DNA from: Bacteroidales bacterium
GTDB taxonomy: Bacteria; Bacteroidota; Bacteroidia; Bacteroidales; UBA932
Length of the DNA stretch: 44,627 nucleotides
Direction of reading: 5' to 3'
NCBI GenBank assembly: GCA_015060445.1
Contig: SUYL01000044.1
Span: 1-44,627, forward strand
Under the pieces are notes generated by a model. The model had not been told where the DNA came from, ran no database searches, and saw only the letters and a list, made by a program, of their open reading frames with translations. A program made the translations under genes and the position numbers. How positions within the stretch are numbered: the stretch's first letter is position 1; each line of letters starts with the position of its first letter. This document shows positions 24,805-40,947 of the stretch, one piece after another.

Positions 24805-25854
24805 ATGAAATTATCACAATTTAATTTTCCCCTTACAGTTGAGCAGATAGCCAAGTATCCTGCAAAATTCAGGGACGAATCAAGAATGCTGGTATTGCAC
24901 AAGGATACTGGAGAGATTGAGCACAAGCAGTTTAAGGATATAATCAACTATATGTCTGCCGGGGATACTTTTGTATTCAACGATACAAGGGTTTTCAAGG
25001 CAAGGCTTTATGGAAACAAGGAGAAGACAGGTGCTGAGATTGAGGTGTTCCTGCTCAGGGAACTCAACAGGGAACAGAGGCTTTGGGATGTGCTTGTAGA
25101 CCCTGCCAGAAAGATTAGGATTGGGAACAAACTTTATTTTGGAGAAGATGATTCTCTTGTGGCAGAGGTAATAGACAATACAACATCCAGGGGAAGGACA
25201 CTGAGGTTCCTTTATGACGGCAGTTACGAGGAGTTCCGCGAAGCCCTTTTTGCTGTAGGCGAACTTCCTATACCAAAATGGATAAGGACAAAACCTGAGG
25301 AGATAGACAACGAGAGATTCCACACAATATATGCGAAGAATGAGGGGGCGGTAGCCACACCTGCTGCAGGACTGCATTTCAGCAGGGAACTCTTCAAGAG
25401 AATGGAGATAAGGGATGTGAACGCAACTTTCCTCACCCTTCATATGGGTCTGGGCCACTTCAGGAAAGTGGATGTTGAGGATCTTTCAAAACACAAGATG
25501 GATTCTGAGCAGATGACAATAACAGAAGAGACTGCAAAACTGATAAATGCCACCAAGGCTGCAGGCCACAAGGTATTTGCTGTAGGAATTACCGTAAGCA
25601 GGGCATTGGAAACCCCAGTAACCACCAGAGGGGAGGTAAAACCATACGTGGGATGGACAAACAAATTCATATTCCCTCCATACCAGTTCTCTGTGGCAGA
25701 TGCACTTGTAACCAACTTCCACATGCCATTCTCAACCATGCTCATGTCTGTTGCCGCATTCGGTGGCTATGACAATGTAATGAATGCATACAAGGTTGCA
25801 CTTGCCGAGGGGTACCAGTTCGGCACCTACGGAGATGCAATGCTGATTATCTGA
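24805..25854 (+). CDS. queA: S-adenosylmethionine:tRNA ribosyltransferase-isomerase
   Basis: QueA transfers the ribosyl part of S-adenosylmethionine to preQ1 in tRNA to form epoxyqueuosine. The 349-residue protein is full length, with [24 protein letters not shown] and the conserved [10 protein letters not shown] segment, followed by the C-terminal [19 protein letters not shown] motif. It follows truB, an arrangement common in Bacteroidetes, and is the last housekeeping gene before the accessory region. Confidence 0.96.
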
Positions 25855-25917: not shown

Positions 25918-25947
25918 ATGTGTAGCAGCTCCGGCTCCAATGCAGGA

Positions 25948-26289
25948 TTTGTCCCGGATTGGGGGTGCTTTTGGGGAGGAGATGCATTTCTTTGGTGGGG
26001 CTGGGAGGGTTTGTCCCGGAATGGGGCCGGTTTCGGGGAGAATGAGCCTTTCTGGGGGAGTTTGTCCCCGAATGGGGTCGGTTTTGGGGAGGAAATGCAT
26101 TTCTTTGGTGGAGCTGGGAGGGTTTGTCCCGGATTGGGGTTGGTTTCGGGGAGGAAGTGCATTTCTTTGGTGGAGCTGGGAGGGTTTGTCCCGGATTTGG
26201 GTCGGTTTCGGGGAGGAAATGCATTTCTTTGGGGATTTGTCCCGGAATGGGGCCGGTTTCGGGGAGGAAATGCATTTCTTGGGGGGAAG
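25948..26289 (+). repeat. Tandem G-rich repeat array, copy A (six units)
   Basis: Six units begin with TTTGTCCCSGAWTKGGG-type sequence at 25948, 26010, 26061, 26123, 26185 and 26236. Their lengths are 62, 51, 62, 62, 51 and about 54 bases. The 62-base form carries an extra GGTGGAGCTGGGAGGG-like end. The middle of most units holds the palindrome GAAATGCATTTC or a one-base variant; the second unit instead has the AGCCTTTC type found in copy B. There are no spacers, so this is not a CRISPR. Several reading frames are open on both strands because the units lack stop codons, but none looks like a real protein. The whole gap 25855-26806 has no gene. Confidence 0.85.
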
Positions 26290-26806: not shown

Positions 26807-27403
26807 ATGATTATAGCATATTTAAGAGTAAGTACCGAAAAACAGAATTTGGAGAACCAGAAAGAGGAGATAAGAAAATTTTCAGAGGCAAGAGGCATTG
26901 TAATAGACAAGTGGACAGAGGAGATTGTAAGTGGGACTACAAACAAGAAGAACAGGAAATTGGGAGGCGTGCTCAGGAGAATGAAAAAGGGCGATATCCT
27001 TGTTGTAACCGAAATCTCCCGACTAAGCAGGACTCTTACAGAAATTATGACAATAATGGGGGAGTGTTTGGGGAAGGGTGTATCTATCTACACTACAAAA
27101 GAAAAGTATGTCATAGATGATTCCATTAACAGTAAAGTGCTCTGTTTTGCATTTGGCCTTGTAGCGGAAATAGAGAGGAATCTTATCTCTATGCGTACAA
27201 AGGAGGCGTTGGCTGTGAAAAAATCTGAAGGTGTGGTGCTTGGACGGAGAAAAGGGAGTTGTACCAAGATTTCTTATTTGCAGGAGCATAAGGATGATAT
27301 TAGGATGATGCTTGAAGACGGTTATTCTGTAACCATGCTGTGCAAAGAATTGAGAGTCTCCCGAGAGACATATTACCGGTATCTGAAAATGGAGAGTGTA
27401 TAA
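26807..27403 (+). CDS. Serine recombinase, Mpi/DNA-invertase type
   Basis: This 198-residue site-specific recombinase of the resolvase/invertase family has the nucleophile S9 in AYLRVSTEKQ, the catalytic arginines R7, R72 and R75 (EISRLSR), and the dimer/E-helix segment AEIERNLISMRTKEAL (120-135). A helix-turn-helix at about 165-195 (YSVTMLCKELRVSRETYYRYL) binds the site. Size and organisation match the Bacteroides fragilis global invertase Mpi, which flips promoters of surface loci; closeness to Mpi is from memory, not from an alignment. It sits directly before an inverted-repeat-bounded promoter segment and a fimbrial operon, so flipping that segment is its likely job. It may also act elsewhere in the genome. 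Confidence 0.9.
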   Translation: MIIAYLRVSTEKQNLENQKEEIRKFSEARGIVIDKWTEEIVSGTTNKKNRKLGGVLRRMKKGDILVVTEISRLSRTLTEIMTIMGECLGKGVSIYTTKEKYVIDDSINSKVLCFAFGLVAEIERNLISMRTKEALAVKKSEGVVLGRRKGSCTKISYLQEHKDDIRMMLEDGYSVTMLCKELRVSRETYYRYLKMESV

Positions 27404-27426
27404 AAAAATAAGGGCTGAAGGCCCCT
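27402..27426 (-). terminator. Minus-strand terminator between the recombinase gene and the switch
   Basis: On the minus strand AGGGGC pairs with GCCCTT (one G-T pair) around CTTCA, followed by TATTTTTTTA. It has no T run on the plus strand. It would stop transcripts leaving the switch leftward before they run antisense into the recombinase gene. Confidence 0.6.
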
Positions 27427-27429
27427 GTT

Positions 27430-27453
27430 GTCCGTTTAAACGTTGGATTAAAA
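27430..27453 (+). repeat. Left arm of the invertible segment
   Basis: This 24-base arm matches the reverse complement of the right arm (27553-27576) at 20 of 24 positions, with the inner 13 (CGTTGGATTAAAA, 27441-27453) perfect. Its ends TTTAA and TTAAA flank the central bases as a partial dyad, as expected of a serine-recombinase crossover site. Confidence 0.8.
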
Positions 27454-27471
27454 GTATATATGTTACGTCTG

Positions 27472-27479
27472 CAAATATA
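27472..27479 (-). promoter_or_regulatory. -7 box inside the invertible segment, facing left
   Basis: Reads TATATTTG on the minus strand, identical to the boxes before the porin, nhaA and the 15674 gene. The flanking A-tract on its upstream side is typical of strong promoters. Confidence 0.6.
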
Positions 27480-27552
27480 ATTATTTTTTTTCAATTAACT
27501 CCCTATTTTCTAAAATTTTGCATTTACGGCAAATATGTGCGTGGGATTGTCT

Positions 27553-27576
27553 TTTTAATCCAACGATAAAATAGAC
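27553..27576 (-). repeat. Right arm of the invertible segment
   Basis: TTTTAATCCAACG (27553-27565) is the exact complement of the left core, with imperfect matching continuing to 27576. It ends 6 bases before the first gene of the fimbrial operon. Confidence 0.8.
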
Positions 27577-27582
27577 AGCCTG

Positions 27583-28827
27583 TTGAAACGCATATCTTAC
27601 ATATTGCTGTTATCTTTTATCATACTGTTGTGTTTGCCTTACACGGCTTACTCTCAGTGTGTTAAGGATTCTGTAAGTGTGTATTATCCCAAAGGTAGTT
27701 CCAAACTCAATCTCAAGTTCAGGGACAATGGGGTGCGTATGAAGCAATTTATAGAGAGGACCGGCAAATATGCCGAGGACTCTTCATATTTTGTTTTAAG
27801 GGTAGATTTCTATTCGCAGGCCTCACCGGAGGGGAAAGTGAGTTTGAACAAGCGTCTGTCTTATGAAAGGGGTAAAGAGATAACATCTTTCCTTACTCAA
27901 TTCGTCAGTTTCGTAGATTCAGTAGTTTTTGTTACAAGTTTGGATGAGGATTGGGCATTCCTTCGCCGGGAGGTGCGGGAAGCCCATAACTTCCCTTGTA
28001 AGGAGGAAGTTGTTTCAATTATGGAATCTTCTCTTCCCGACGATGAAAAGGAGAAACAGTTGAAAAAGGTGGGGGGAGGCAAACCATGGAGTTTGATGTT
28101 GCAGAAGTTCTTCCCTCAAATGAGACGTGCAGATGTGGTAATCACATTGGGAATAGTGGAACCTTATACAAATGTGGAGATAGCACAATTGCAGGAAGAA
28201 GAGATTTTTATAGAAGATGATCATTTGCATTTCAATATGCCCGAGTTACGGGTTGATACCCTCCCACTCCCCCGGAAAGTGAGCCGAAATTGGTATCTGA
28301 AGACCAATGTGGCCGGCCTTGGTATGCTTGTAGCCAATCTTGCAGGGGAGGTGGATTTGGGTAGAGGATTCTCATTTGCCCTTCCGGTATATTACAGTGC
28401 ATGGAACTATTTTACTGAGGATGTAAAATTCAGGACATTTACAATCCAACCGGAATTGAGATATTGGTTTGTCGGGAAGAGTAAAGGTTTGTATGGAGGA
28501 ATTCATGCAGGCCTGGGCTGGTTTAATGTTGCAACAGGAGGGCAGTGGAGGAAGCAGGATAAGGATGGGAAGACTCCTGCCATTGGAGGAGGAGTATCTG
28601 CCGGTTACAGGATGCCGCTGGGTAAGGGAAACTCAAGGTGGATGATGGAATTCTCGGCGGGTGCAGGTATTTACTCTGTAGAGTATGATGTGTTCCATAA
28701 CTACAGCAACGGAACCCTTAACAGGACCGAAAAGAAGACATACATAGGATTGGACCAGTTGGCGGTGAATCTTATATATAAACTGCCCTATACAAAAAGG
28801 GGAAATAAAGGGAGGGGCAGCAAATGA
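27583..28827 (+). CDS. DUF3575 outer-membrane protein with OmpA-like N-terminal part
   Basis: The first gene of the fimbrial operon encodes a 414-residue protein with a signal peptide (about 1-25, cut after AYS). Residues about 60-105 (FVLRVDFYSQASPEGKVSLNKRLSYERGKEI) resemble OmpA-type peptidoglycan-binding domains. Residues about 235-405 (NWYLKTNVAGLGMLVANLAGEVDL and following) match DUF3575, a predicted beta-barrel-like domain found in Bacteroidetes fimbrial loci. It may form an outer-membrane base or secretion partner for the fimbriae; that is inference. The only start consistent with the signal peptide is TTG at 27583: an in-frame stop lies at 27556 and no ATG lies between. The next gene overlaps its stop by ATGA. 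Confidence 0.85.
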   Translation: MKRISYILLLSFIILLCLPYTAYSQCVKDSVSVYYPKGSSKLNLKFRDNGVRMKQFIERTGKYAEDSSYFVLRVDFYSQASPEGKVSLNKRLSYERGKEITSFLTQFVSFVDSVVFVTSLDEDWAFLRREVREAHNFPCKEEVVSIMESSLPDDEKEKQLKKVGGGKPWSLMLQKFFPQMRRADVVITLGIVEPYTNVEIAQLQEEEIFIEDDHLHFNMPELRVDTLPLPRKVSRNWYLKTNVAGLGMLVANLAGEVDLGRGFSFALPVYYSAWNYFTEDVKFRTFTIQPELRYWFVGKSKGLYGGIHAGLGWFNVATGGQWRKQDKDGKTPAIGGGVSAGYRMPLGKGNSRWMMEFSAGAGIYSVEYDVFHNYSNGTLNRTEKKTYIGLDQLAVNLIYKLPYTKRGNKGRGSK

Positions 28828-29888
28828 ATACAATAAATAAATGGAGGCTTTCTCTCTCTGCCGTTGTGTTGATTATTTGTCTGGTTCTGGGCGGATGTGA
28901 TGTACATGAGTTCCCCCAGTTGGGAGAACCGGCACCGCTCAAACTGAAACTGAACTTCAATACGGAACTTCCTCCGTTCCTTACAGTAAACTATGGGACC
29001 AAACAGGAAGACATTCCAAGCCTGTATGATATAAGATACCAGATAAAGGCGTATCTGATTACCAAAAATGATGAATATGACCGTCTTGAAACGGCGTCGT
29101 TTACCTATACAGCACCTGTTACAGACAATCTCAACTATGAAACAACACTCACTTTGCCATCTGGCGAGTTTATGTTTAAAGTTTGGGCAGACTATGTAAG
29201 AAAAGGTACCCAGGAGGATTTGTATCATAACACAGAGAATTTCAACAATATAAAACTTACTGAGCCGCATACTGCCAATACAGATTTCAGGGACGGATTC
29301 TGTGGAAGCAAGGTTATAAAGGTGGAGAACACCAAAATAGACGGTGTGGTATCTGAAGATGTTATAGAGATGGAGAGGCCGCTGGCAAAATTTATATTCA
29401 TAACAACAGATCTTAAGGAGTTCATAGACAAGGAGACAAAAACAAAACTTAAGGAACTGATGAAAGCCGGGCGTACATCTACATGGGCAGAAGATTCAAC
29501 AAAAGCGGTAGAGGTAAAACCGGAAGACTACTATCTGGTATTCAAATACCCAATCTATATGCCGTGTGCATACAGCATTTTTGAAGACAGACCGGTGAAT
29601 TCAAAGCCGGGTGTTGAGTTCAAATCTGTAATGGTTCCGCTTTCCGGAAATGAGGCGACACTCGGATTTGACTACGTATTGGTGAACGGAAAAGAGTCCA
29701 GTGCACAGGTTGCGGTGGAACTGTACAATAAAAAAGGGGAAATACTCTCAAACTCCGGAACCATAGATGTACCTCTAAAGAGGAGCAAACTTACTGAGGT
29801 GCGTGGAGCATTCCTTACCCTGGAGACAGGAGGAGGAGTGGGCATTAACCCGGATTTTAACGGAGACCATAACATATTTATACCATAA
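28824..29888 (+). CDS. FimB/Mfa2 family fimbrial anchor lipoprotein
   Basis: This 354-residue lipoprotein (lipobox LGGC, C25) resembles the Mfa2/FimB family, which anchors fimbriae to the outer membrane and limits their length in Porphyromonas gingivalis. Two beta-sandwich domains are expected, at about 35-180 and 185-350. Segments such as RYQIKAYLITKNDEYDRLE, LPSGEFMFKVWADYV, NTDFRDGFCGSKV and MERPLAKFIFITTDL are typical. It lacks the Lys/Arg-Ala trimming motif of the subunits downstream, as expected for an anchor. The gene overlaps the DUF3575 gene by 4 bases and precedes the five subunit-like genes. Confidence 0.85.
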   Translation: MNTINKWRLSLSAVVLIICLVLGGCDVHEFPQLGEPAPLKLKLNFNTELPPFLTVNYGTKQEDIPSLYDIRYQIKAYLITKNDEYDRLETASFTYTAPVTDNLNYETTLTLPSGEFMFKVWADYVRKGTQEDLYHNTENFNNIKLTEPHTANTDFRDGFCGSKVIKVENTKIDGVVSEDVIEMERPLAKFIFITTDLKEFIDKETKTKLKELMKAGRTSTWAEDSTKAVEVKPEDYYLVFKYPIYMPCAYSIFEDRPVNSKPGVEFKSVMVPLSGNEATLGFDYVLVNGKESSAQVAVELYNKKGEILSNSGTIDVPLKRSKLTEVRGAFLTLETGGGVGINPDFNGDHNIFIP

Positions 29889-29899
29889 CGTTGCTGCAA

Positions 29900-32545
29900 A
29901 TGAAAAACACACTATACATATTGCTTTTGCTGCTTTGCCCAGTACTCTTTGTGCAGTGCCAGAAAGATGAAACTGCGGGTGTTGGTGAAGAGGTTGACGT
30001 AACCTTTACCGCCCGCATCTCTGATGTGCAGTTCTCTACAAAGGCTATGGGTGACGGAAGCAAGGTGGATAAATTATCTGTTGGGCTGTTTGATAAGCAG
30101 GGAAATTTAGTATGGAGGAATAAAGATGATATTCAGATAAGTGTCTCTTCACCGGCAACTGTAAAGGTGCCAATGTTCAAAGGCCGTGAATATGATGTTG
30201 TATTTTGGGCCCAATCTTCTGAATGCACTTCATATAATACAGATAACCTTAAAGCAATATCAATAACTTATGGGAGTGGTAGTATTAATGACTATGCTAC
30301 CATAGAGCAACTGGATGCATTCCATTGCTTGAAAACCGGAGTTTCACACAATACTGCAGATAAAACCATTACTCTTACAAGACCTTTTACCCAATTGAAT
30401 ATGGGTGTACCCGTTTCGGTTCTTGAAGAACTTGAAAGTTCCGGATACAGCATAGGTTCAGTAAAACTTACAGTTGGTGGAGTTGCAGATGAATTCAATG
30501 CACTTACGGGTGTGAAATCTGGTGATAAAACTTTCACCTTTACATTCAATACTCTTCCCGACGGTAGTGTGAAAGTTAAAAATGATAAAGGCGAGGAAAT
30601 AGAATACAAATACCTGGCTACAACATACCTATTTGCCAGTGAAGACAAAGTAAGTGCCACTTTGGAAGTATTCAATGGAAATGAAACAGAGCCGTTCTCA
30701 ACAGTGTCGTATGAAGATACACCTGCAGAACCAAATGAGCGGACAAGCATTTTTGGAAATATTGAGACTCTAATTCTTAAATGGGATGGGAATATTGATA
30801 AAGATGGTGTTGAGTTTGAAGGTTCAAAATGTACAATAAAAACACCTCAAGGCTTGGCGTGGCTTAGTGAATACCCAACAGATTCCCGAGTCTTAGATTG
30901 TGATGAATTTATCCTTGAAAAGAGTATGGATATGGGGGCAAAATCTGAAACTCCATTGACTCTTTTGTCCATTGAGTTACCAGTAGAGACTGTTTTTGAT
31001 GGAAACGGAAAGAAATTGCAGAATATAAATATTAACGGAAATTCATTATTTGCGGATGCAAGCAAACTTACTGTAAAAAACCTGACAGTTACCAATATTA
31101 CTGTAGATAAAACATCAGCAACAGAGGTGACCCATGTAGGTTCACTTGTAAATATACTAAAAGGAGGAGGGACTTTCAGCAACGTAACTGTAAAGGATGC
31201 CGTAGTAACTACTGGTAACGGTGCTGCAGGAGGGCTAGTGGGTTATGTATGCCCTGAGTCTGATGGGAGTGCCAGTGAAGTGATTTTTTATAATTCTCAT
31301 GTAAATAATTCAACTGTTAAAGGAACAAGGAGTGAAGGCCATTTTGTGGGATTGTTGAGAGGATTCAATAATACAGAAAAATTGATATTTAACACCAATT
31401 GTACATCAGAGTCAACACAAACTTCAAGTGTGTCAGGTGGCTTTGTGTCACCTTATAGAGAAGGTAATGAAGGTAGATGGCTTGCTGGGAATGATTACAC
31501 AAAATTTAATGGTTGGTTGGGTGATGAGGAGAAATATCGTGGAACTGTAATATATGGTGTAAACCGTTTTATCCCTTGTTGGGATGGAAGTACTGAAGTT
31601 ACGCCATTAACAGAAGGTACCACTAAACTAATATATTCTGCTTATGACCTGGCATCACTACAAGGTACTGCTGCCGGCAATATTAAGTTAATGGAAAATG
31701 TGGATATGGAGTATGATCTTGATGGCGCTTCAAAAGATGGTGTGCGTAATCATATTTTCACAGCATTGAGTACACTTGCAAAACTTGAAGGCAATGGTAA
31801 GACAATATACAATATCTCCATTAGAGACAATTATTATGGCGGTTTTGTAAAAAATGAAAGTTGTGCTACAACTTTCGAAAATGTAACATTTGATGGTGCA
31901 GATATTCGGGTAACCCATGATACAGAAGAAGGTAATGCTTATGTTGGGACATTACGTGGATTTGCTTATGCTACTACGACTATCAATAATGTTCACGTTA
32001 AGAATGGTTACTTAAATGGTGTGTGCAAGATGGGCGGTTTGTGTGGTGGAATCTTTGCAAAAATTACTTGCTCCAACAGTTCTGTACAAAATTATAAATT
32101 TGAGAATTATGATTCGGAGATAATTAATAAAGGGTTCAAAGCGAACGGTGAAATAGGAGGCTTAATTGGCTATATTACAGTACTCGATGCATCAACCGTT
32201 AATGAAATCTCTACTTGCTCAGTGCAGAATAACTCCTTCAATTGTGTTACCTATAGTGCGTCACTTTGGGATAGAAGTGTTGCTCCATTTATAGGAGATA
32301 TAAGGACCCAGCAAGCTGGTGTTGTCAGAATCGGGAATTGTGAAATATTGGGCGTTAATACTTATACAAATGCAGAAACTGGAAAAACTGCCGATTTTGA
32401 TCAACATAGAAAACAAACTGGAGGATCGTGGTTGAGACCAACTTATGCTTATTATCCATTAGTAGGGCAATGTTATGCTGTATCTATTTTGGGAATGGGA
32501 GATAAAAAAGGGACGGTTTATATAGGCGATACTCAAATATTCTAA
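29900..32545 (+). CDS. Fimbrillin-like lipoprotein 1, with long repeat-rich C-terminal region
   Basis: The 881-residue protein is exported as a lipoprotein (FVQC, C20). Its first 300 residues match the fimbrillin-like domain annotated as DUF6562 in Bacteroidetes: STKAMGDG (46-53) with K48, VVFWAQ, RPFTQLNMG and NERTSIFGN. The rest, from about 320, is made of short strand repeats with GLUG-like motifs (AGGLVGYV, GEIGGLIGYI) and SNVTVKDAVV-type turns, which suggests a right-handed beta-helix adhesin. In the second half arginine is often coded CGT/CGG while neighbours prefer AGG/AGA, and the DNA is more A/T-rich, hinting at a different origin for that part. It starts 11 bases after the anchor gene. 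Confidence 0.8.
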   Translation: MKNTLYILLLLLCPVLFVQCQKDETAGVGEEVDVTFTARISDVQFSTKAMGDGSKVDKLSVGLFDKQGNLVWRNKDDIQISVSSPATVKVPMFKGREYDVVFWAQSSECTSYNTDNLKAISITYGSGSINDYATIEQLDAFHCLKTGVSHNTADKTITLTRPFTQLNMGVPVSVLEELESSGYSIGSVKLTVGGVADEFNALTGVKSGDKTFTFTFNTLPDGSVKVKNDKGEEIEYKYLATTYLFASEDKVSATLEVFNGNETEPFSTVSYEDTPAEPNERTSIFGNIETLILKWDGNIDKDGVEFEGSKCTIKTPQGLAWLSEYPTDSRVLDCDEFILEKSMDMGAKSETPLTLLSIELPVETVFDGNGKKLQNININGNSLFADASKLTVKNLTVTNITVDKTSATEVTHVGSLVNILKGGGTFSNVTVKDAVVTTGNGAAGGLVGYVCPESDGSASEVIFYNSHVNNSTVKGTRSEGHFVGLLRGFNNTEKLIFNTNCTSESTQTSSVSGGFVSPYREGNEGRWLAGNDYTKFNGWLGDEEKYRGTVIYGVNRFIPCWDGSTEVTPLTEGTTKLIYSAYDLASLQGTAAGNIKLMENVDMEYDLDGASKDGVRNHIFTALSTLAKLEGNGKTIYNISIRDNYYGGFVKNESCATTFENVTFDGADIRVTHDTEEGNAYVGTLRGFAYATTTINNVHVKNGYLNGVCKMGGLCGGIFAKITCSNSSVQNYKFENYDSEIINKGFKANGEIGGLIGYITVLDASTVNEISTCSVQNNSFNCVTYSASLWDRSVAPFIGDIRTQQAGVVRIGNCEILGVNTYTNAETGKTADFDQHRKQTGGSWLRPTYAYYPLVGQCYAVSILGMGDKKGTVYIGDTQIF

Positions 32546-32573
32546 ATGGTATAAATAATAAATTAAAATCAAT

Positions 32574-33569
32574 ATGAAAAAACTTTTTCAATTGTTTGCT
32601 GCTGCAGTGGTTGTTCTGTTTGCTGCAGCATGTGAGAAGAGTTCTGTGGGAGAAACCGGTGAGGAGGTGCAGGTTTCGTATGCAGTTAATTTGGGGAGCG
32701 TAACCAAGGCTGTGGGAGATGCTTCTAAAGTGAATGTTGTGGCTTGTGCTGTGTATAAGGTTAATAAAAATGAGAATGGTGTAGAGACCTATTCTTTAAT
32801 TCAGAGCACAAAGAAAAATGTTTTTATCAAAAATGGTTCTGCCACATACTCTCCAATTTTGATAAAAGGACAGAAATACAGGATTGCTTTTTTTGCATAT
32901 CATCAGAAAGATGCACAAGAGGGAAATTGTGAGTACGACGCAGGAAATGCTGCTTATAATATTACAGATCTTACTGCAGTAAAAGTGAATACATATTTGA
33001 ACAATAGTGAGAATCTTGATGCTTTTGCTAAATATGAGGATTTGACAGTTGGTTCAAATGTGAATCCTAGTGTTACGCTTGTGCGTCCTGTTGCACAGTT
33101 GAATATTGGAGTAACACAGACAGATTGGAATAATGCTGTTGCTTTGGGCGAAACTCCAACTTCCTCAGAGATAAAAATTTCTGTGCCGGTTAATGAATAT
33201 AATGCGGTAACAGGGAAGGTTAATTCTTTGAACTCAAATGTTGATTTGCAGTACGATAGACAAACACTGGTTAGTGGCTCTTTTAATCCAAAGGAGAGTG
33301 GAACTCAAGAAGATATAGATTATAAATATTTGTCTCTTACTTATGTTTTTGCAACATCTGAAAGCGATGCATCTACACAAGCAGATTTGGCGTTAACAGT
33401 ATATAACGGGAATGGAGCAAAGATGTTTGAGACATCGCAGTTGACCAATATTCCACTCAAGGCAAATCATAAGACAAATATCTATGGAACTCTTATGACT
33501 GGGGCTGTGAATTATAATATTTCTCTTAGTAAAGGGTTTGCACCTGAGGAGAATAATGTGCAGAAGTAA
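32574..33569 (+). CDS. Fimbrillin-like lipoprotein 2 (short)
   Basis: This 331-residue protein consists of a lipoprotein signal (AAAC, C20) and the fimbrillin-like domain only. The trimming motif is VTKAVGDA (43-50, K45). The RPVAQLNIG and NHKTNIYGTL motifs are present, but the WAQ motif reads FFAYHQ, so the central region departs from the others. It lacks a beta-helix extension, so it is a candidate main shaft subunit. It ends 51 bases before the next subunit gene, with no terminator seen. Confidence 0.8.
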   Translation: MKKLFQLFAAAVVVLFAAACEKSSVGETGEEVQVSYAVNLGSVTKAVGDASKVNVVACAVYKVNKNENGVETYSLIQSTKKNVFIKNGSATYSPILIKGQKYRIAFFAYHQKDAQEGNCEYDAGNAAYNITDLTAVKVNTYLNNSENLDAFAKYEDLTVGSNVNPSVTLVRPVAQLNIGVTQTDWNNAVALGETPTSSEIKISVPVNEYNAVTGKVNSLNSNVDLQYDRQTLVSGSFNPKESGTQEDIDYKYLSLTYVFATSESDASTQADLALTVYNGNGAKMFETSQLTNIPLKANHKTNIYGTLMTGAVNYNISLSKGFAPEENNVQK

Positions 33570-33620
33570 ACTACTTTGAATTAACATTATAAAAATCAAT
33601 ATTAACTAAATTTAAGAACC

Positions 33621-36600
33621 ATGAAGAAATTATTTAATCTTCTAAGCGTGCTTTCAATCATTGCATTGGTAGCCGTATCATGCTCAAAAGATGAAGGTCT
33701 TATTGAGCCGGTGAGTGAGCAGTCACAAGTTAGTTTTAGTGTGAATGTACCTACAGGTCTCCAGACTAGGGCTATTGGTGATGGCAACACCGTTAATGAA
33801 CTTCATTATGAGGTTTATTATGATGGAGCAACTACACCTATTATTGATGATGTAGTTTCCCAGTCTACAGCAGGTGTAAACCCTGGTGAGGGAAGAATAT
33901 TTACTGTTTCATTCCCTTTGGTTAAACAACAGGAATATACAATCCTATTCTGGGCTCAAAACAGCAATAATGGTGTGTATGATCCTGCTAACCTTACTCA
34001 AGTAAAGGTTGATTATACTAAAACTGTTGCAAACAAAGAGAATTTGGATGCTTTCTATGCTGCTAAAACTTTTGTTGTTGAAAGTGAGAATCTTAACCAG
34101 ACTATTACATTAACACGTCCTTTTGGACAGTTGAACCTAGGTACTTCTAAGGAGAGTACAATAGAGGCTGCCAGATTAGGGGTTTCTGCTTCTAAAACTA
34201 AAATTATTGTAAGTTCATTACCAACTTGCTTTAATGTTGCTAATGGTGCTGCAACACAGCCTGCTGAGAATGTAGAGTTTGTATTCAATACTTTGCCAGA
34301 AGAGAAAAATATTACTGTAGAATTAAGTGGTAACGATGTTACATTTGATTACTTGTCATTCAACTATCTTCTTCTTGAGGCAACTCAAGAGAATATTCTA
34401 GTTGATTTAAATGCTCAGATTGAATTGAATGATGGCAATATCATTGAGCATAAAATTTCAGCTCTTCCTGTGCAGAGAAACTATAGAACAAATATTGTAG
34501 GTAACTTGCTTACAAGCAATACAAATTTCAAGATTGTTGTTGATAATAGATTTAATGAGCCAGCAAAAGCGGTTACTATATGGGATGGCAAAACTGTAGT
34601 TGAACCATCAGTTGTTGATGGTAAATACATCATTACCAATTCTGCTGAATTTGCATGGTTGCAGGCTCCAAGAGTATTGGCATATGACATAGAATTGGCA
34701 TCAACCATAGATATGGGTGGTTATCCTGTAAAAGGCATTCTGTCTAATGGCAAAACGCTTGACGGAAAGGGCTATACAATTCAAAATGTAACTTTTGATT
34801 ACACATCATCACAACCTTGGTCTTCTTTGTTTGTAACAGGTGGTGGTAACGGTAACAATTCCAAAGTTAATGTTAAGAACCTGACTCTTTACAAGGCTAA
34901 ATCTGTTGGCGGTAAGAATGATAATGGCAATTCAGCAATTATTGCATCTTATGTTGAAAACGTTTGCAATATTGAAAATGTTTTGATTAAAGAGTGTGAG
35001 ATTCAGGGTACACAATCTTTAGGAGCCTTCATTGGACATGTAACTGCTAGTGGTAATGCAACAATCAAAGATTCTAAGGTTGAAGATGTAACAGTTACAA
35101 CATTTGATGTAACAGATGAGTCTGGTAATGCAGGTACAGTTGTTGGAAGGGTAACCGGACAACTTACTATGGAAAATACATCTGTGGACGGAGGAGTAAT
35201 AAATGCATATGTGAACAGAGCAAATGATGAGCGTACAATATCCAAATATATTGGTAACTTCTACGGATCAGGTGCATCAATCAAGGTTATAAATGGCTCT
35301 ACAAAGAATGTTACAATTAATGCTTTGAACACATTGGCAGAAACAGAACAATGTAAATATACAGATTACCTGGGTGGTTGGAGAAAAGATGGCGGTACAG
35401 TTGAAATTAACGGAGTTAATTTGACCAAAGGTTCATCAATTCAGCCTGACAATACTTTAGCACCAGTTAATGGCGTTTATGAAATTAACGACATTAATGA
35501 TATGTTGGCACTTTCAGGTATCAATTTGACTCAAGAATCAACAATTAATATCAATAACGATATTGATATGTTGAATATGGAGTTCAAAGGCATTTCGGCA
35601 CATTATACAAAAGTTACCGTTAATGGAAATGGCAAGACCATTAAGAATGTAAATGTGGTGGAGAATGCACATAATAATGGAACTGATGCTGCTTCAATAT
35701 TCTTTGCTTCAGTTAACTCTGAACTGAATGTGTCTGATCTTACTTTTGACAACATCAATGTCATAGCTCCAATTGGAGGATATGGTTATGCAGGTGTATT
35801 GGTTGGCTATAATCAGGGTGCAACTACCGTTAAAAATGTAGTTGTTAAAAATTCAAGCGTATACGGTGAGAAATCTTGCGGTGGAATTATTGGTTTTGCA
35901 GAGCATTCAGGTTCTGTAGTTCTAGAGAATTGTAGAGTGGAAAATACAACTGTAGAAGCTAAAGAAGACAGAACAGGTGCATGGATTGGTAGAGTATACA
36001 GCCCTACCACAATCACAAACTGTACAGTAGGTGAAGGATTCGTTTCTATAGCACCAGACGGTGATGCAAACAAATTTATTGGTCAAAGATACGTTGGCGT
36101 ATCGTCTTGTACAGTTGATGGGGCTGAATATTTTGACAAAAATACTCAGACGGAACTTGCTACATATTTGAAAAATGTCAATGCTACCTCAATTAAAGTT
36201 GTATTGGGAACCAATGTTGACTGTTATTTGAATGATGGTGTTGGTGGAGCAAACACAACTGAAATCAGCATTTCTGCATTGGATAAAAAATACATACTGA
36301 ACATTACATGTCCAAGTGCTTCATATAATGGGTCATATTGTACATTCAGAGCTGTTAATCCTACAACTATAATGAAGTTCAATAATATCACATTGAATAA
36401 AACTGCGTGGACTGCTGAAACATGGAATACATATAACATGGAGTTCTATACAGATGTTGAATTGGATAATTGTGTAATTGAGCATCCTATAACTGTTTGT
36501 ACTAAAGCATCAATCAAAAATTCTACTATCAATGGCTTTAGAGGTACTGCAGATCATTATGCAATTTGGCAACAGGCCAATGGTACTGATTTGAGCCTTG

Positions 36601-36878
36601 AGAATTGTGTAGTTAACGGAACAAGAGGTATTAAAATTTCTATGGAGTATATTACACCTTTGGAAACATCATTATCTGTTTCAAATACTAAGTTTGTTAC
36701 ATCAGGAAGCAAAGGTGCTATTCTTGTAGAAACATCTGCAGCAACAAATATCAATCTAAGCAGAGTTGATATTTCAAATGTGGTAGCGGATAAAGTTAAT
36801 CCTGTTTGGGTTGATGCTGATGCTGCAGCATATTTCAACTTGGTAAATGTTTCAGGTGGATCAAAAATCCAGGAGTAA
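33621..36878 (+). CDS. Fimbrillin-like lipoprotein 3, giant form with beta-helix
   Basis: At 1085 residues this is the largest subunit-like protein. It has lipobox VAVSC (C21), trimming motif QTRAIGDG (48-55, R50), ILFWAQNS, RPFGQLNLG and NYRTNIVGNLL, which together define the fimbrillin-like domain (about 1-310). The remaining 770 residues are strand repeats with GLUG-like motifs (GYAGVLVGYN, CGGIIGFAEH, LGAFIGHV) and many N-x-T/S turns, expected to form parallel beta-helices. It would be an adhesive tip or stalk. The gene is clearly more A/T-rich than its neighbours, which points to separate acquisition or exchange of this gene. Confidence 0.82.
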   Translation: MKKLFNLLSVLSIIALVAVSCSKDEGLIEPVSEQSQVSFSVNVPTGLQTRAIGDGNTVNELHYEVYYDGATTPIIDDVVSQSTAGVNPGEGRIFTVSFPLVKQQEYTILFWAQNSNNGVYDPANLTQVKVDYTKTVANKENLDAFYAAKTFVVESENLNQTITLTRPFGQLNLGTSKESTIEAARLGVSASKTKIIVSSLPTCFNVANGAATQPAENVEFVFNTLPEEKNITVELSGNDVTFDYLSFNYLLLEATQENILVDLNAQIELNDGNIIEHKISALPVQRNYRTNIVGNLLTSNTNFKIVVDNRFNEPAKAVTIWDGKTVVEPSVVDGKYIITNSAEFAWLQAPRVLAYDIELASTIDMGGYPVKGILSNGKTLDGKGYTIQNVTFDYTSSQPWSSLFVTGGGNGNNSKVNVKNLTLYKAKSVGGKNDNGNSAIIASYVENVCNIENVLIKECEIQGTQSLGAFIGHVTASGNATIKDSKVEDVTVTTFDVTDESGNAGTVVGRVTGQLTMENTSVDGGVINAYVNRANDERTISKYIGNFYGSGASIKVINGSTKNVTINALNTLAETEQCKYTDYLGGWRKDGGTVEINGVNLTKGSSIQPDNTLAPVNGVYEINDINDMLALSGINLTQESTININNDIDMLNMEFKGISAHYTKVTVNGNGKTIKNVNVVENAHNNGTDAASIFFASVNSELNVSDLTFDNINVIAPIGGYGYAGVLVGYNQGATTVKNVVVKNSSVYGEKSCGGIIGFAEHSGSVVLENCRVENTTVEAKEDRTGAWIGRVYSPTTITNCTVGEGFVSIAPDGDANKFIGQRYVGVSSCTVDGAEYFDKNTQTELATYLKNVNATSIKVVLGTNVDCYLNDGVGGANTTEISISALDKKYILNITCPSASYNGSYCTFRAVNPTTIMKFNNITLNKTAWTAETWNTYNMEFYTDVELDNCVIEHPITVCTKASIKNSTINGFRGTADHYAIWQQANGTDLSLENCVVNGTRGIKISMEYITPLETSLSVSNTKFVTSGSKGAILVETSAATNINLSRVDISNVVADKVNPVWVDADAAAYFNLVNVSGGSKIQE

Positions 36879-36906
36879 TCTCTTCCAACTAAAATGTTAA
36901 ATATTC

Positions 36907-36934
36907 CTCAGGGTGTTCTTTGTGGCACCCTGAG
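36907..36934 (+). other. Perfect 9-bp hairpin between subunit genes
   Basis: CTCAGGGTG (36907-36915) pairs with CACCCTGAG (36926-36934) around a 10-base loop. No T run follows, so it is not a normal terminator. It ends 12 bases before the next ATG and could affect translation start, mRNA ends or partial stop of transcription. Confidence 0.55.
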
Positions 36935-36946
36935 TTATTCCAACAA

Positions 36947-37906
36947 ATGAAACTGATTACAAACATAATTCTCCTGGTTGTGGCGGCCGGGTGCGCGCTT
37001 GGAATTTCCGGGTGCAGCAAGGAGGTGTCGCAACTGGAGCAGATAGGGAGCAAGTCTGAGGTGGCCTTTACGGCCGTTGTACCTCAGGAGTTGGCTACGC
37101 GTGCCATTTCAGATGGGAGCGGTGCCACGGCTTTGAAGTATTCGGTTTATGACGGGGACGGGACCCTTATTCCAGGTCTCAGCGGTACGGCTACCATGGT
37201 TGGTGGCTCGGCCAATATTAATATGACTCTGGTAAAGAATATGAAGTATAAAATCATATTCTGGGCCCAGAATCCAAATTGTGCGGCGTATAACACTTCA
37301 GATCTTACCGCAATTAAGGTCAATTACAGTGGTATTGCCAATGATGAGGGGAGAGATGCGTTTTATGCAGTAAAGGAGATTTTCGTAGATGGCGGTTTTT
37401 CTCAGGAGGTGATTCTGCGCCGTCCTTTTGCCCAGATCAATTTTGGTACTGCCGATATTGAGGGGTTTGAGGATTATGGTCCCCTTCTCCAGAGTACCAT
37501 TGAGGTGGATGGTCTTCCTGATGTATTCCACCCTTTTGAGAATGGTACGCCACAGTTGTTCCCCCCATTGGGGAGTATGATATCGGGAAGCATATCATCT
37601 TCATTCTCCATGACGGAGTTCCCTGGTGCCCCTGCATATCTTTATGTAGAAGGGTACAGGTACAGATATGTTTCCATGAATTATATTCTTGCTCCAAAAG
37701 GGTTGGGGATGCTGGATAAGGTTGTTGCCAAATTCAAACTCAAAAGCGGAAAGCAAGTTGCCTTAACGGTTTCAAATGTGCCGGTGCAGGCAAATTACCG
37801 TACCAATATTGTGGGGAACCTCTTCACCGATATTGTTAATGTAAGGGTTGTTGTGGATGCAGATTTTCTTAATCCCGACAATAATGAGCCGTTTCCACAA
37901 AAATAG
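36947..37906 (+). CDS. Fimbrillin-like lipoprotein 4 (short)
   Basis: The 319-residue protein has lipobox cysteine C23 (ISGC; a second Cys at 16 is less likely), trimming motif ATRAISDG (50-57, R52), IIFWAQNPN, RPFAQINFG and NYRTNIVGNLF. It lacks a long C-terminal extension. The ATG at 36947 starts the signal peptide; a TTG upstream would begin inside the hairpin. It is the second short subunit and is more like fimbrillin 5 than fimbrillin 2 in its motifs. Confidence 0.8.
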   Translation: MKLITNIILLVVAAGCALGISGCSKEVSQLEQIGSKSEVAFTAVVPQELATRAISDGSGATALKYSVYDGDGTLIPGLSGTATMVGGSANINMTLVKNMKYKIIFWAQNPNCAAYNTSDLTAIKVNYSGIANDEGRDAFYAVKEIFVDGGFSQEVILRRPFAQINFGTADIEGFEDYGPLLQSTIEVDGLPDVFHPFENGTPQLFPPLGSMISGSISSSFSMTEFPGAPAYLYVEGYRYRYVSMNYILAPKGLGMLDKVVAKFKLKSGKQVALTVSNVPVQANYRTNIVGNLFTDIVNVRVVVDADFLNPDNNEPFPQK

Positions 37907-37930
37907 AATAAAAATTAATACCCATTTCTT

Positions 37931-40720
37931 ATGAAGAAACTATTCAATTTGTTTGCGCTGGCTGTTGCACTGGTTCTTGCAGTGGCTTGTTCAAAGGATG
38001 AGGGTACAGGCCAGATTCCTCAGGATGGGGATTTGGTGGATGTAACCTTTACCGCCCAGTTGCCTGGCGGGCCTGCTACCAAAGCAATTAGCGATGGTGC
38101 CAAGGCCGTGGATCTCTATTTTGAGGTTTACGATGAGCAGCAGGTAAAGATTGCTGCCTTGAGGCAGGTGAAGAAGAATGCTTTCAGTAATCTGGAGGCA
38201 ACTGTAACTGTTCAGTTGGTTAAGGGTCAGACATATAATTTTATATTCTGGGCCCAGAATCCAAAGTGTACAGCGTACAATGTTGAGAATCTGAACAAGA
38301 TTACAATTGATTATAATGGTATAAAAAGCCAGGATGAAACCAGAGATGCTTTTTATGCTGTAGAGAAAGGCTTTAAAGTTACCGGACCTTTCAGCAAGCC
38401 TGTTGTCCTGAACAGACCTTTTGCCCAGTTGAATATGGGTACTGCAGATGCTGCTGCAGCCGAGGCTGCCGGCGTTAAGGTTGAGCAGACCAAAGTTGTT
38501 GTAGAGGAGGTTGCTACTGTTCTGTATCCTTTTACTGGTGCAGTGTCAGACAAGAAGACTGTAGAGTTTGCTTTGGCAGACATCATTAAGGATGAGCCGT
38601 TGGTAGTTATTACCAAAGATGCAAAAGATAATGAGGTTTCCAACAGTTACCAGTGGCTGTCTATGAACTATCTGCTTGTTTCTACCCCTTCTGCAGATGG
38701 CGCAGCAAAAGACCTGGTAAAGGTTACCGCTACCATTAAACACAATAAGGGTGAGATTCCGTTGGTTGCATCTAATGTCCCTGTACAGAGGAACTGGAGA
38801 ACAAATCTTGTTGGAAATCTGCTTACCGAGACAGGTGAGTTTAAGGTTGTTATTGACAAAGATTACATTAATGACCATAACTATGATGAGTTCCTTCTTG
38901 CATTGCAGAATGGCGGCAAGGTAACCCTTACAAAAGACATAGAATTGCCTACACCTGGCATGACAACTGCAGAACTGGTTGACAAACTTACAGTTGCTGC
39001 CGGCAAGTCTGTAATGATAGACCTTAACGGCCATACCATCAAATATACAGGTAGCGATGCCATTATGTTCCGTGTTAACGGTGATCTCATTATTGAGGGC
39101 AATGGCGGAAAGATGGAAGGTACTGCATATTTTGCATCTGCCAATGCCGGTGGTACCATTACTGTAAACGGCGGTGATTATGTAACCGACAGTTATACCT
39201 GTTTCCAGTCTAACGGTGGTAAAGTTTATATCAACGGCGGTAACTACGAGGCTAAAGCATACACTGCAGTTTATCCTTTGGGCAGATATACCATCAATAT
39301 GATTGACAACAGCAATGGCGTAATTGAGATTAAAGGTGGAGTGTTCAAGAACTTTAACCCTGCAGATGTTTTATCTGAGCCAACCAGACCGTTGAGTTTT
39401 GTTGCAAAAGGTTACAAGTCTGTTCTTGTAAACGGTTCTACAACAGACTATGAGGTTGTTGAGATGAATGTTGTTGAGAAGGGTTTCCTTAACGGAATGT
39501 CGGGAGTAATAGATCTTACAGAGGATATTGAACTTAATGTTCCTGCCGCAGTTGGCGGTTCATTTGAGTATGCTGCACTTGAAGTTCCTGCGGGAAAAAC
39601 CATTACCATTAATCTTAACGGCAACAAGATTACCTCTGCAAATGACTATATGTTGTTCAGGGTATTTGGAGAACTTGTAATCAATGGCGGTAATGGCGGC
39701 GAAATAGCAATTGAAAGAACCAATTTTGTATCTGCTACTATGGGATGTTATATTGCCCAGGCCAAAGATGGCGGTAAAATTACTGTAAATGGCGGTAAAT
39801 ACAGTTCTGTAGGAGAGTGCATGTTCCAGGCCAATAAAGGCAAGATCTATATTAAAGGCGGTGAATTCAATGCCGAAAATGGAGCATCATTCACATTGAA
39901 CCATATTGACCCAAGTTATGCTGCCGGCCTCATAGAGGTTACAGGTGGTAAATTCCACGGATTCAACCCTGCCGACAACCTTTCTGAGGGCCCCGGTACA
40001 GATTATGTACCAGAGGGTTATGATGTAACAAATGTGGGTACTGCAGCAGCTCCTGTATATGAGGTAGTAGTTGCCCAATCAGTAGGCGCTGGCCAGACTG
40101 TAGTTTTGCCAGGGGATGGCACATTGTCTTCTACCATAAAAGTGGATGGCGGTATCCTTGATGGAGGAAACAACACCCTTGAAGTATCGGACAATCCGGC
40201 AACCAACTTCCTAGTTCAGACCACTGGCAACAGTATTGTAAGGAACCTTACAATAGAGGGCAACAACCAGAAATTTGGAACAAAGAGCACCAGAGCCATT
40301 TACACTGAAAATCCTGGTGACCTTACAATTGCAAATGTGAACATAAGCGGAGTAGGATATGCACTCAATGTGAACACCTCCAAACCTGCAGGCAAACTGT
40401 TGGTACAGAACAGTACCCTTGTAGGATGGACATCATTCTCAGGTGTATTTACCGAGGCTTTATTCAAGAATGTTAACTTTGGAAGAGGAAACTATTTCGA
40501 CGGCACTACATTTGCCAACGGCCTTTTCCGCCCTTACCAGAGTGTAGTACTGGAAAACTGTACATTTGAGAGCGGCTTTACCATTTCTCTTGTAAGTTTG
40601 CCAACCGGTGGAAAGATAACATTCAAAAACTGCAAAGTAGGAACCCAAACCTTGACCGAAACCAACATTGCTACTTTGTTAGTGGTTGAGGGAACATCAA
40701 CAGGGAAGATTGCTTTTTAA
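37931..40720 (+). CDS. Fimbrillin-like lipoprotein 5, with two tandem beta-helix modules
   Basis: The 929-residue protein has lipobox VAC (C20), trimming motif ATKAISDG (49-56, K51), FIFWAQNPK, RPFAQLNMG and NWRTNLVGNLL in the fimbrillin-like domain (1-310). Two similar modules follow, residues about 321-511 and 516-713. Both have DIEL, LNG near residue 366 or 563, FRVxG, ITVNGG, ING/IKGG and FNPAD-LSE landmarks in the same order. A third, different strand-repeat region runs from 720 to 929. It looks like a large adhesin tip. It is the last gene of the operon, followed by a terminator. Confidence 0.83.
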   Translation: MKKLFNLFALAVALVLAVACSKDEGTGQIPQDGDLVDVTFTAQLPGGPATKAISDGAKAVDLYFEVYDEQQVKIAALRQVKKNAFSNLEATVTVQLVKGQTYNFIFWAQNPKCTAYNVENLNKITIDYNGIKSQDETRDAFYAVEKGFKVTGPFSKPVVLNRPFAQLNMGTADAAAAEAAGVKVEQTKVVVEEVATVLYPFTGAVSDKKTVEFALADIIKDEPLVVITKDAKDNEVSNSYQWLSMNYLLVSTPSADGAAKDLVKVTATIKHNKGEIPLVASNVPVQRNWRTNLVGNLLTETGEFKVVIDKDYINDHNYDEFLLALQNGGKVTLTKDIELPTPGMTTAELVDKLTVAAGKSVMIDLNGHTIKYTGSDAIMFRVNGDLIIEGNGGKMEGTAYFASANAGGTITVNGGDYVTDSYTCFQSNGGKVYINGGNYEAKAYTAVYPLGRYTINMIDNSNGVIEIKGGVFKNFNPADVLSEPTRPLSFVAKGYKSVLVNGSTTDYEVVEMNVVEKGFLNGMSGVIDLTEDIELNVPAAVGGSFEYAALEVPAGKTITINLNGNKITSANDYMLFRVFGELVINGGNGGEIAIERTNFVSATMGCYIAQAKDGGKITVNGGKYSSVGECMFQANKGKIYIKGGEFNAENGASFTLNHIDPSYAAGLIEVTGGKFHGFNPADNLSEGPGTDYVPEGYDVTNVGTAAAPVYEVVVAQSVGAGQTVVLPGDGTLSSTIKVDGGILDGGNNTLEVSDNPATNFLVQTTGNSIVRNLTIEGNNQKFGTKSTRAIYTENPGDLTIANVNISGVGYALNVNTSKPAGKLLVQNSTLVGWTSFSGVFTEALFKNVNFGRGNYFDGTTFANGLFRPYQSVVLENCTFESGFTISLVSLPTGGKITFKNCKVGTQTLTETNIATLLVVEGTSTGKIAF

Positions 40721-40792: not shown

Positions 40793-40947
40793 CTTCTCCC
40801 GGAATGAGGTTACTTTTGGGGAGAAAATGTATTTCTTGGGGGGATTTGTCCCGGATTGGGGTCGGTTTCGGGGAGAAAGAGCCTTTCTGGGGGGAGTTTG
40901 TCCCGGATTTGGGTGACTTTCGGGGAGAAAGAGCCTTTCTGGGCGGT
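40793..40947 (+). repeat. Tandem G-rich repeat array, copy B (three units)
   Basis: Three units start at about 40793 (diverged), 40845 and 40897, each 51-52 bases, with the same TTTGTCCCGG start and TTTCGGGGAG middle as copy A. Units two and three carry GAAAGAGCCTTTC in place of GAAATGCATTTC: different bases, same dyad. The array lies after the fimbrial operon terminator and in the same orientation as copy A, so the two form a direct repeat around the recombinase and fimbrial locus. No gene is seen in the gap 40721-41132. Confidence 0.85.

Follow-up and report, generated by a model that had tools for sequence, protein, structure and literature searches.

A putative invertible promoter between a serine recombinase gene and a type V fimbrial operon in a Bacteroidales bacterium

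That promoters are inverted in Bacteroides, both by the serine recombinase Mpi and by tyrosine recombinases, is established, as four reports bear out (PMC12632263, PMC4747536, PMC5903667, PMC3090145) and as the first-pass annotation of the DNA studied here had stated for Mpi. Mpi-controlled invertible promoters are known from the Bacteroides fragilis capsule loci (PMC12632263, PMC4747536, PMC5903667), where a single enzyme serves 13 scattered regions. Fimbriae are also known as targets of inversion: fimbrillin genes are enriched near certain inverton groups of gut bacteria, and the enriched invertases are described there as tyrosine-type enzymes and site-specific integrases (PMC11892184). In the type 1 fim switch of Escherichia coli, named in one of these reports (PMC5903667), promoter inversion turns fimbriae on and off.

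The locus described here lies in a window of 44,627 nucleotides, by which we mean the whole stretch of DNA analysed, and consists of a serine recombinase gene, an A/T-rich segment between inverted arms and a fimbrial operon (Table 1). We consider it highly probable that positions 27429–27577 are an invertible promoter flipped by the adjacent recombinase (26807–27403), that the sequenced state of the operon is OFF, and that one cassette comprises recombinase, switch and operon. The likeness to the E. coli fim switch is one of outcome, as that switch is made of unrelated parts, namely the tyrosine recombinases FimB and FimE and pili of the chaperone-usher type. The likeness to the Mpi system as reported for B. 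fragilis is closer: the shared plan is that of short promoter segments, bounded by inverted repeats, which a serine recombinase turns over to switch a surface structure, with TANNTTTG as the −7 consensus. Unlike the reported Mpi system, the window's enzyme adjoins its putative target, scores below the Mpi cut-off and faces a fimbrial operon rather than capsule genes. It also differs from the fimbrillin invertons of PMC11892184, since a serine recombinase adjoins the switch. Among the matches listed in a literature search of titles and abstracts, we found no account of the window's switch. The proposed switch looks like a new example that works like the known Mpi and tyrosine-recombinase promoter switches. 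Being compact and open to testing, and served by what appears to be its own dedicated recombinase, it enlarges the set of fimbrial phase switches by one from a lineage that, by its gene families, is probably Bacteroidales. Of more interest are the cassette and the apparent exchange of switch types between operons.

Arms, segment and promoter box

Table 1. Coordinates of the switch, its recombinase, the operon and the flanking repeats within the window
Feature	Position	Strand	Basis
Tandem repeat array, 62-bp unit, left edge of putative cassette	25944..26287	.	
Serine recombinase, resolvase/invertase type	26807..27403	+	PF00239 E 2.1e-34, HTH_7 6.8e-07
Terminator-like hairpin and T run, leftward	27410..27426	-	6-pair stem, tail ATTTTTTTAT
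Left arm of inverted repeat	27429..27453	+	repeat search
Putative invertible segment, 99 nt, 72% A+T	27454..27552	.	arm pair and shuffle test
Candidate -7 box TATATTTG (next base C), directed away from operon, 18 nt off left arm	27472..27479	-	consensus match only
Right arm of inverted repeat	27553..27577	-	repeat search
DUF3575 protein, first gene of operon, TTG start	27583..28827	+	PF12099 3.8e-32
DUF6562 lipoprotein, type V pilin-like fold	28824..29888	+	PF20200 3.9e-77; model pLDDT 72
Mfa2-domain large fimbrial protein	29891..32545	+	PF08842 1.2e-09
Pilin-like lipoprotein	32574..33569	+	PF20200 2.3e-10; model pLDDT 68
Large protein, DUF6562-like part N-terminal	33621..36878	+	PF20200 1.6e-12
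DUF6562-like lipoprotein	36920..37906	+	PF20200 2.6e-07
Large protein, DUF6562-like part N-terminal, last gene of operon	37931..40720	+	PF20200 3.9e-08
Copies of same repeat, 52-bp period, right edge of putative cassette	40797..40943	.	

The recombinase gene and the operon are separated by a gap of 179 nt (27404–27582). The arms annotated earlier in this gap (27430–27453 and 27553–27576, inverted and matching at 20 of 24 positions, 13 of them in one perfect run, around 99 A/T-rich nucleotides) were recovered at the same positions, and one more base per side extends the match to 21 of 25. The inner 13 positions are perfect, and the outer 12 match at 8 only. In dinucleotide shuffles of the gap, the score of the pair was reached in none of 3000 when a mismatch cost −1 (score 17) and in 4 of 3000 when it cost −2 (score 13). 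The arm pair is beyond chance, and inverted repeats of this kind around an intergenic segment are a mark of invertons. The right arm ends at 27577, which leaves five nucleotides before the TTG start at 27583.

The spacer contains TATATTTGC pointing away from the operon at 27583, in agreement with the earlier annotation; read on the minus strand, TATATTTG and the C that follows it fit the Bacteroides −7 consensus TANNTTTGY as given in PMC12632263. Taken alone, the box is weak evidence for a promoter, because TANNTTTG turns up on one strand or the other in 22% of shuffled spacers (for the minus strand, the figure is 6.6%). No convincing −33 element was seen by eye at the usual spacing. By its consensus, the segment does hold a candidate promoter that inversion would orient to the operon, and the position of this box relative to the arm is common to nine segments upstream of such operons, three of them by a relaxed pattern (see below).

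Could the segment be invertible and the sequenced state nevertheless be ON? A weaker rightward promoter (27488–27516, TTTTCA-17-TAAAAT, or the TAAAATTTTG stretch) would then drive the operon and the leftward box would be incidental. The plus strand does carry TAAAATTTTGC and a sigma-70-like pair, but such pairs occur in the region at chance level (5 found versus 4.9 expected), the perfect TANNTTTGY box faces left and stands 18 nt from the arm, in the manner of the relatives, and a leftward terminator-like hairpin lies beyond it. We therefore judge an ON state to be quite improbable.

With the operon OFF as sequenced, which we infer from the direction of the box, transcription would start at TATATTTG, and the box (27479–27472, minus strand) would fire left, toward the hairpin at 27426–27410. 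This hairpin could stop transcripts of the OFF promoter before they enter the recombinase gene in antisense, a suggestion that we take as a hint only because such sites are not rare (3 terminator-like sites found in the 2.2-kb region versus 1.7 expected). The recombinase would pair the two arms and invert the 99 nt between them, thus placing the box at 27527–27534 on the plus strand, 48 nt before the TTG at 27583, and turning the operon (27583–40720) ON. By flipping the segment, the bacterium could switch surface fibres on or off.

The fimbrial operon and its adjoining recombinase

All seven frames of the operon are open. The predicted structure of the second product (28824–29888) matches Mfa2, Mfa3, FimA and relatives, and that of the fourth (32574–33569) matches type V pilins. 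Judged by these predicted folds, the operon encodes the pilin-fold lipoproteins expected of a type V pilus operon, and the Mfa2 domain and the pilin-like folds together support a fimbrial nature of its products.

The recombinase carries PF00239 and PF02796 above cut-off, that is, the resolvase N-terminal domain and the C-terminal HTH of a small serine recombinase, and R7, S9, R72, R75 and E123 are invariant across 8 aligned recombinase sequences. Its reading frame looks intact, with no visible damage. The first-pass annotation had called it an Mpi-type serine recombinase: the family stands, and the strict Mpi assignment does not. The enzyme scores 267.2 bits against the NCBIfam Mpi model (NF009949), below the curated cut-off of 272, so that by score it is not a strict Mpi, whereas two Mpi equivalogs elsewhere in the same genome (contigs C18 and C50) reach 333 and 339 bits. 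In the recombinase tree, the window's enzyme falls in a clade apart from these two. A survey of 39 genus genomes, with the window's own among them, gave two relatives at 68% identity, in G012 (66–68%) and G018; in the G018 assembly, the relative does not adjoin the operon.

The state of these genes also bears on whether the arms are the relic of a former switch, with a segment that has ceased to flip and an operon locked OFF. The weak match of the outer arm positions (8 of 12) and the single orientation at hand would fit such a relic, but the arms match perfectly over their inner 13 nt, the recombinase looks intact and the seven operon frames are open, and we hold a relic to be highly unlikely.

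Which enzyme acts on an active switch? Because no other exact copy of the arms' inner 13-mer is present in the 87%-complete assembly, in contrast to the 13 scattered regions reported for B. fragilis Mpi, the window's recombinase looks dedicated and local rather than a global "master" enzyme; one copy with a single mismatch lies inside an operon gene, at 33281. Another recombinase, either one of the Mpi equivalogs on C18 and C50 or a tyrosine-type enzyme, might invert the segment while the adjacent gene acts elsewhere. B. fragilis Mpi is reported to work in trans on 13 regions (PMC4747536, PMC5903667), and some homologous operons have switches that adjoin tyrosine recombinases. Yet two genomes have the window's type of recombinase and operon side by side, each at its own site, and the candidate arms by the C18 and C50 enzymes differ in sequence from those of the window, which makes an outside enzyme a most doubtful candidate. 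The adjacent recombinase probably flips the segment.

Three observations were made at other recombinase loci. The two Mpi equivalogs (L026 and L032 in G000:C18 and C50) are each immediately preceded by a candidate arm pair, ATAATGTTTGTT with a spacer of 107 and ATATTTGTCGGGAAAAAGAA with a spacer of 104. A contig end lies within 500 nt downstream of the recombinase gene in 8 of the 30 loci examined out of 36 matches (L050, L051, L052, L055, L058, L062, L063 and L065) and upstream in none of the 30; mixed orientations could be the cause of these assembly breaks. In G012:C52 (L025/L031), a recombinase gene is part of an inverted duplication, perfect over 291 nt, that probably arose in assembly.

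A cassette at two chromosomal sites

In the window, about 15 kb with the recombinase gene, its switch and the operon separate queA (24805–25854) from dprA (match from 40986). In 33 of 38 genus relatives, no more than 680 nt separate the two genes; the remaining five have them on different contigs or lack dprA. In G012 the distance between them is 152 nt, and the homologous cassette is found elsewhere, beside a serine hydroxymethyltransferase gene. Since the recombinase adjoins the operon at both of these chromosomal sites, a working link between them is supported, and the three parts appear to have moved as a unit, as would be expected if recombinase, switch and operon travel jointly as a single cassette. 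Both edges of the cassette are lined by copies of one repeat (Table 1). A 17-mer of this repeat, tested with at most one mismatch, was found at eight places in the genome, all within the two edge arrays, and two mismatches brought in six more places on other contigs. The 52–62-bp repeat may have helped insertion of the cassette or may simply mark it.

The G012 locus (L036) shows the same order as the window: recombinase, arms, segment, DUF3575 and DUF6562 genes, with TATCTTTG facing away from the operon. Its arms, TGTTTGGAAAAACGGT and ACCGTTTTTTCATACA, enclose 82 nt, and 14 or 43 of 3000 shuffles reach the pair, depending on the score. By eye, the arm letters differ from those of the window except for a TGT...AACG skeleton. 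When the segments of the window and of G012 were compared directly, no signal of a shared orientation emerged (211 and 132 of 500 shuffles score equally high). The G012 operon is shorter, with the DUF3575 gene, the DUF6562 gene and one protein of ~700 aa, and it may be partly decayed, because the DUF3575 frame is short (261 aa versus 422) and its alignment crosses one TGA.

When the G012 segment is flipped by script (L036/L091, G012:C40), an in-frame ATG comes to lie immediately ahead of the right arm; in the sequenced orientation, no usual start codon occurs before a TTG that stands 16 codons into the frame. The G012 switch may carry a start codon as well as a promoter, which could be chance.

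Switch types and orientation at homologous operons

Relatives of the first operon gene occur in 18 of 398 genomes of the family, own included. Two of these 18 genes (window and G012) have the serine-type layout, 6 have a TCTCTT-type pair and 10 have no clear pair; as far as their upstream regions tell, the switch is absent from many operons of the family. The second type is a TCTCTT...AGAGA inverted repeat of 14–16 nt upstream of L035, L038, L075, L077, L078 and L080, which share the operon family and the box-to-arm geometry of the window and differ from it in their arms. At L041, from a more distant relative within the genus, the arms are different again. By Pfam search, carried out for these three only, the ORFs upstream of L038, L075 and L078 are tyrosine recombinases; the upstream ORF of L080 has a C-terminal end in common with that of L078.

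A natural inversion was seen between L078 (genome G081) and L080 (G168), which is a homologous operon with TCTCTT-type arms and an adjoining tyrosine recombinase rather than the window's serine type. A 125-nt segment is identical at 125 of 125 positions only if one copy is inverted, versus 58 of 147 columns otherwise, and it is flanked by 320 of 324 identical positions upstream (1158 of 1333 over the wider upstream region) and by 2694 of 2760 identical columns downstream. Because the segment is inverted between near-identical flanks, the putative promoter region of this operon family exists in nature in both orientations, another mark of an inverton. Among the other TCTCTT-arm pairs, no orientation signal exceeded 200 shuffles; L035 against L078 or L080 was marginal (33 versus shuffle maxima of 30 and 31).

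Box geometry was compared in nine segments, namely the window, G012 and seven others, eight of them independent as G081 and G168 share one. An exact TANNTTTG lies at most 40 nt from the left arm and faces it in 6 of the 9, versus 0.46 expected from dinucleotide shuffles. With the relaxed pattern TANNTTT[AG], a box faces the left arm in 7 of 9 (0.95 expected), which would be OFF as sequenced, and in the remaining two, L080 and L038 (0.62 expected), it stands at the right arm and faces the operon, which would be ON. Each relaxed box lies 8–30 nt from an arm and points at that arm. The exact count of 6 in 9 is the fairer one, the relaxed pattern having been adopted after L078 and L080 were seen. 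The nine segments had been chosen after pair scores were seen in 20 loci. Within the nine, L077 also has an opposite-facing box at the left arm, and G012 has a second relaxed box. By this geometry, a box that stands 18 nt from the left arm, as in the window, is typical of the OFF state. The earlier claims of an invertible promoter, of its target operon and of an OFF state are thus supported by the same box-to-arm geometry at homologous operons and by the opposite orientations in G081 and G168, and inversion of the window's own segment is what we infer from them.

Eleven loci were left out of the nine: L083, with an imperfect pair far upstream and a single TCTCTTATGAAGAGA beside a rightward box; L040, a self-palindromic 14-mer; L044, with a score of 11; L086, where no frame was found; and L037, L076, L079, L081, L082, L084 and L085, for want of a pair. 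In eight more distant loci (L039, L042, L043 and L045–L049), the pair score was 12 in L043 and 11 in L045. An ordinary rightward box precedes the gene in L042, L043, L047 and L048, as well as in L044 and L081, and these operons therefore probably have a fixed promoter.

The search of related genomes for the same arms, which the first-pass annotation had proposed, returned the own genome alone: the window's exact inner 13-mers at 84–114 nt spacing occur in 1 of 398 family genomes, and no contig in IMG/VR holds them. Some homologous operons carry a switch with other arms, and they seem to have exchanged one recombinase family for another. On a broader reading, for which we hold the balance to be even, the phase switch can be replaced as a part: among homologous operons for type V fimbriae, some would bear a tyrosine switch with TCTCTT arms and others a serine switch, the promoter-to-arm geometry being alike in both, and the recombinase would move between sites along with switch and operon as a self-switching cassette. 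This suggests that the switch itself, beside the fimbriae, is exchanged between lineages, the layout being kept while the recombinase family changes. A comparison of switch-bearing and switchless operons of the family could show when fimbriae come under a flip switch.

At two loci, L037 (G010) and L049 (G018), a long ORF precedes the DUF3575 homologue, in a place where no recombinase was seen. The ORF of L037, the one tested, encodes 491 aa with many repeated HTH motifs.
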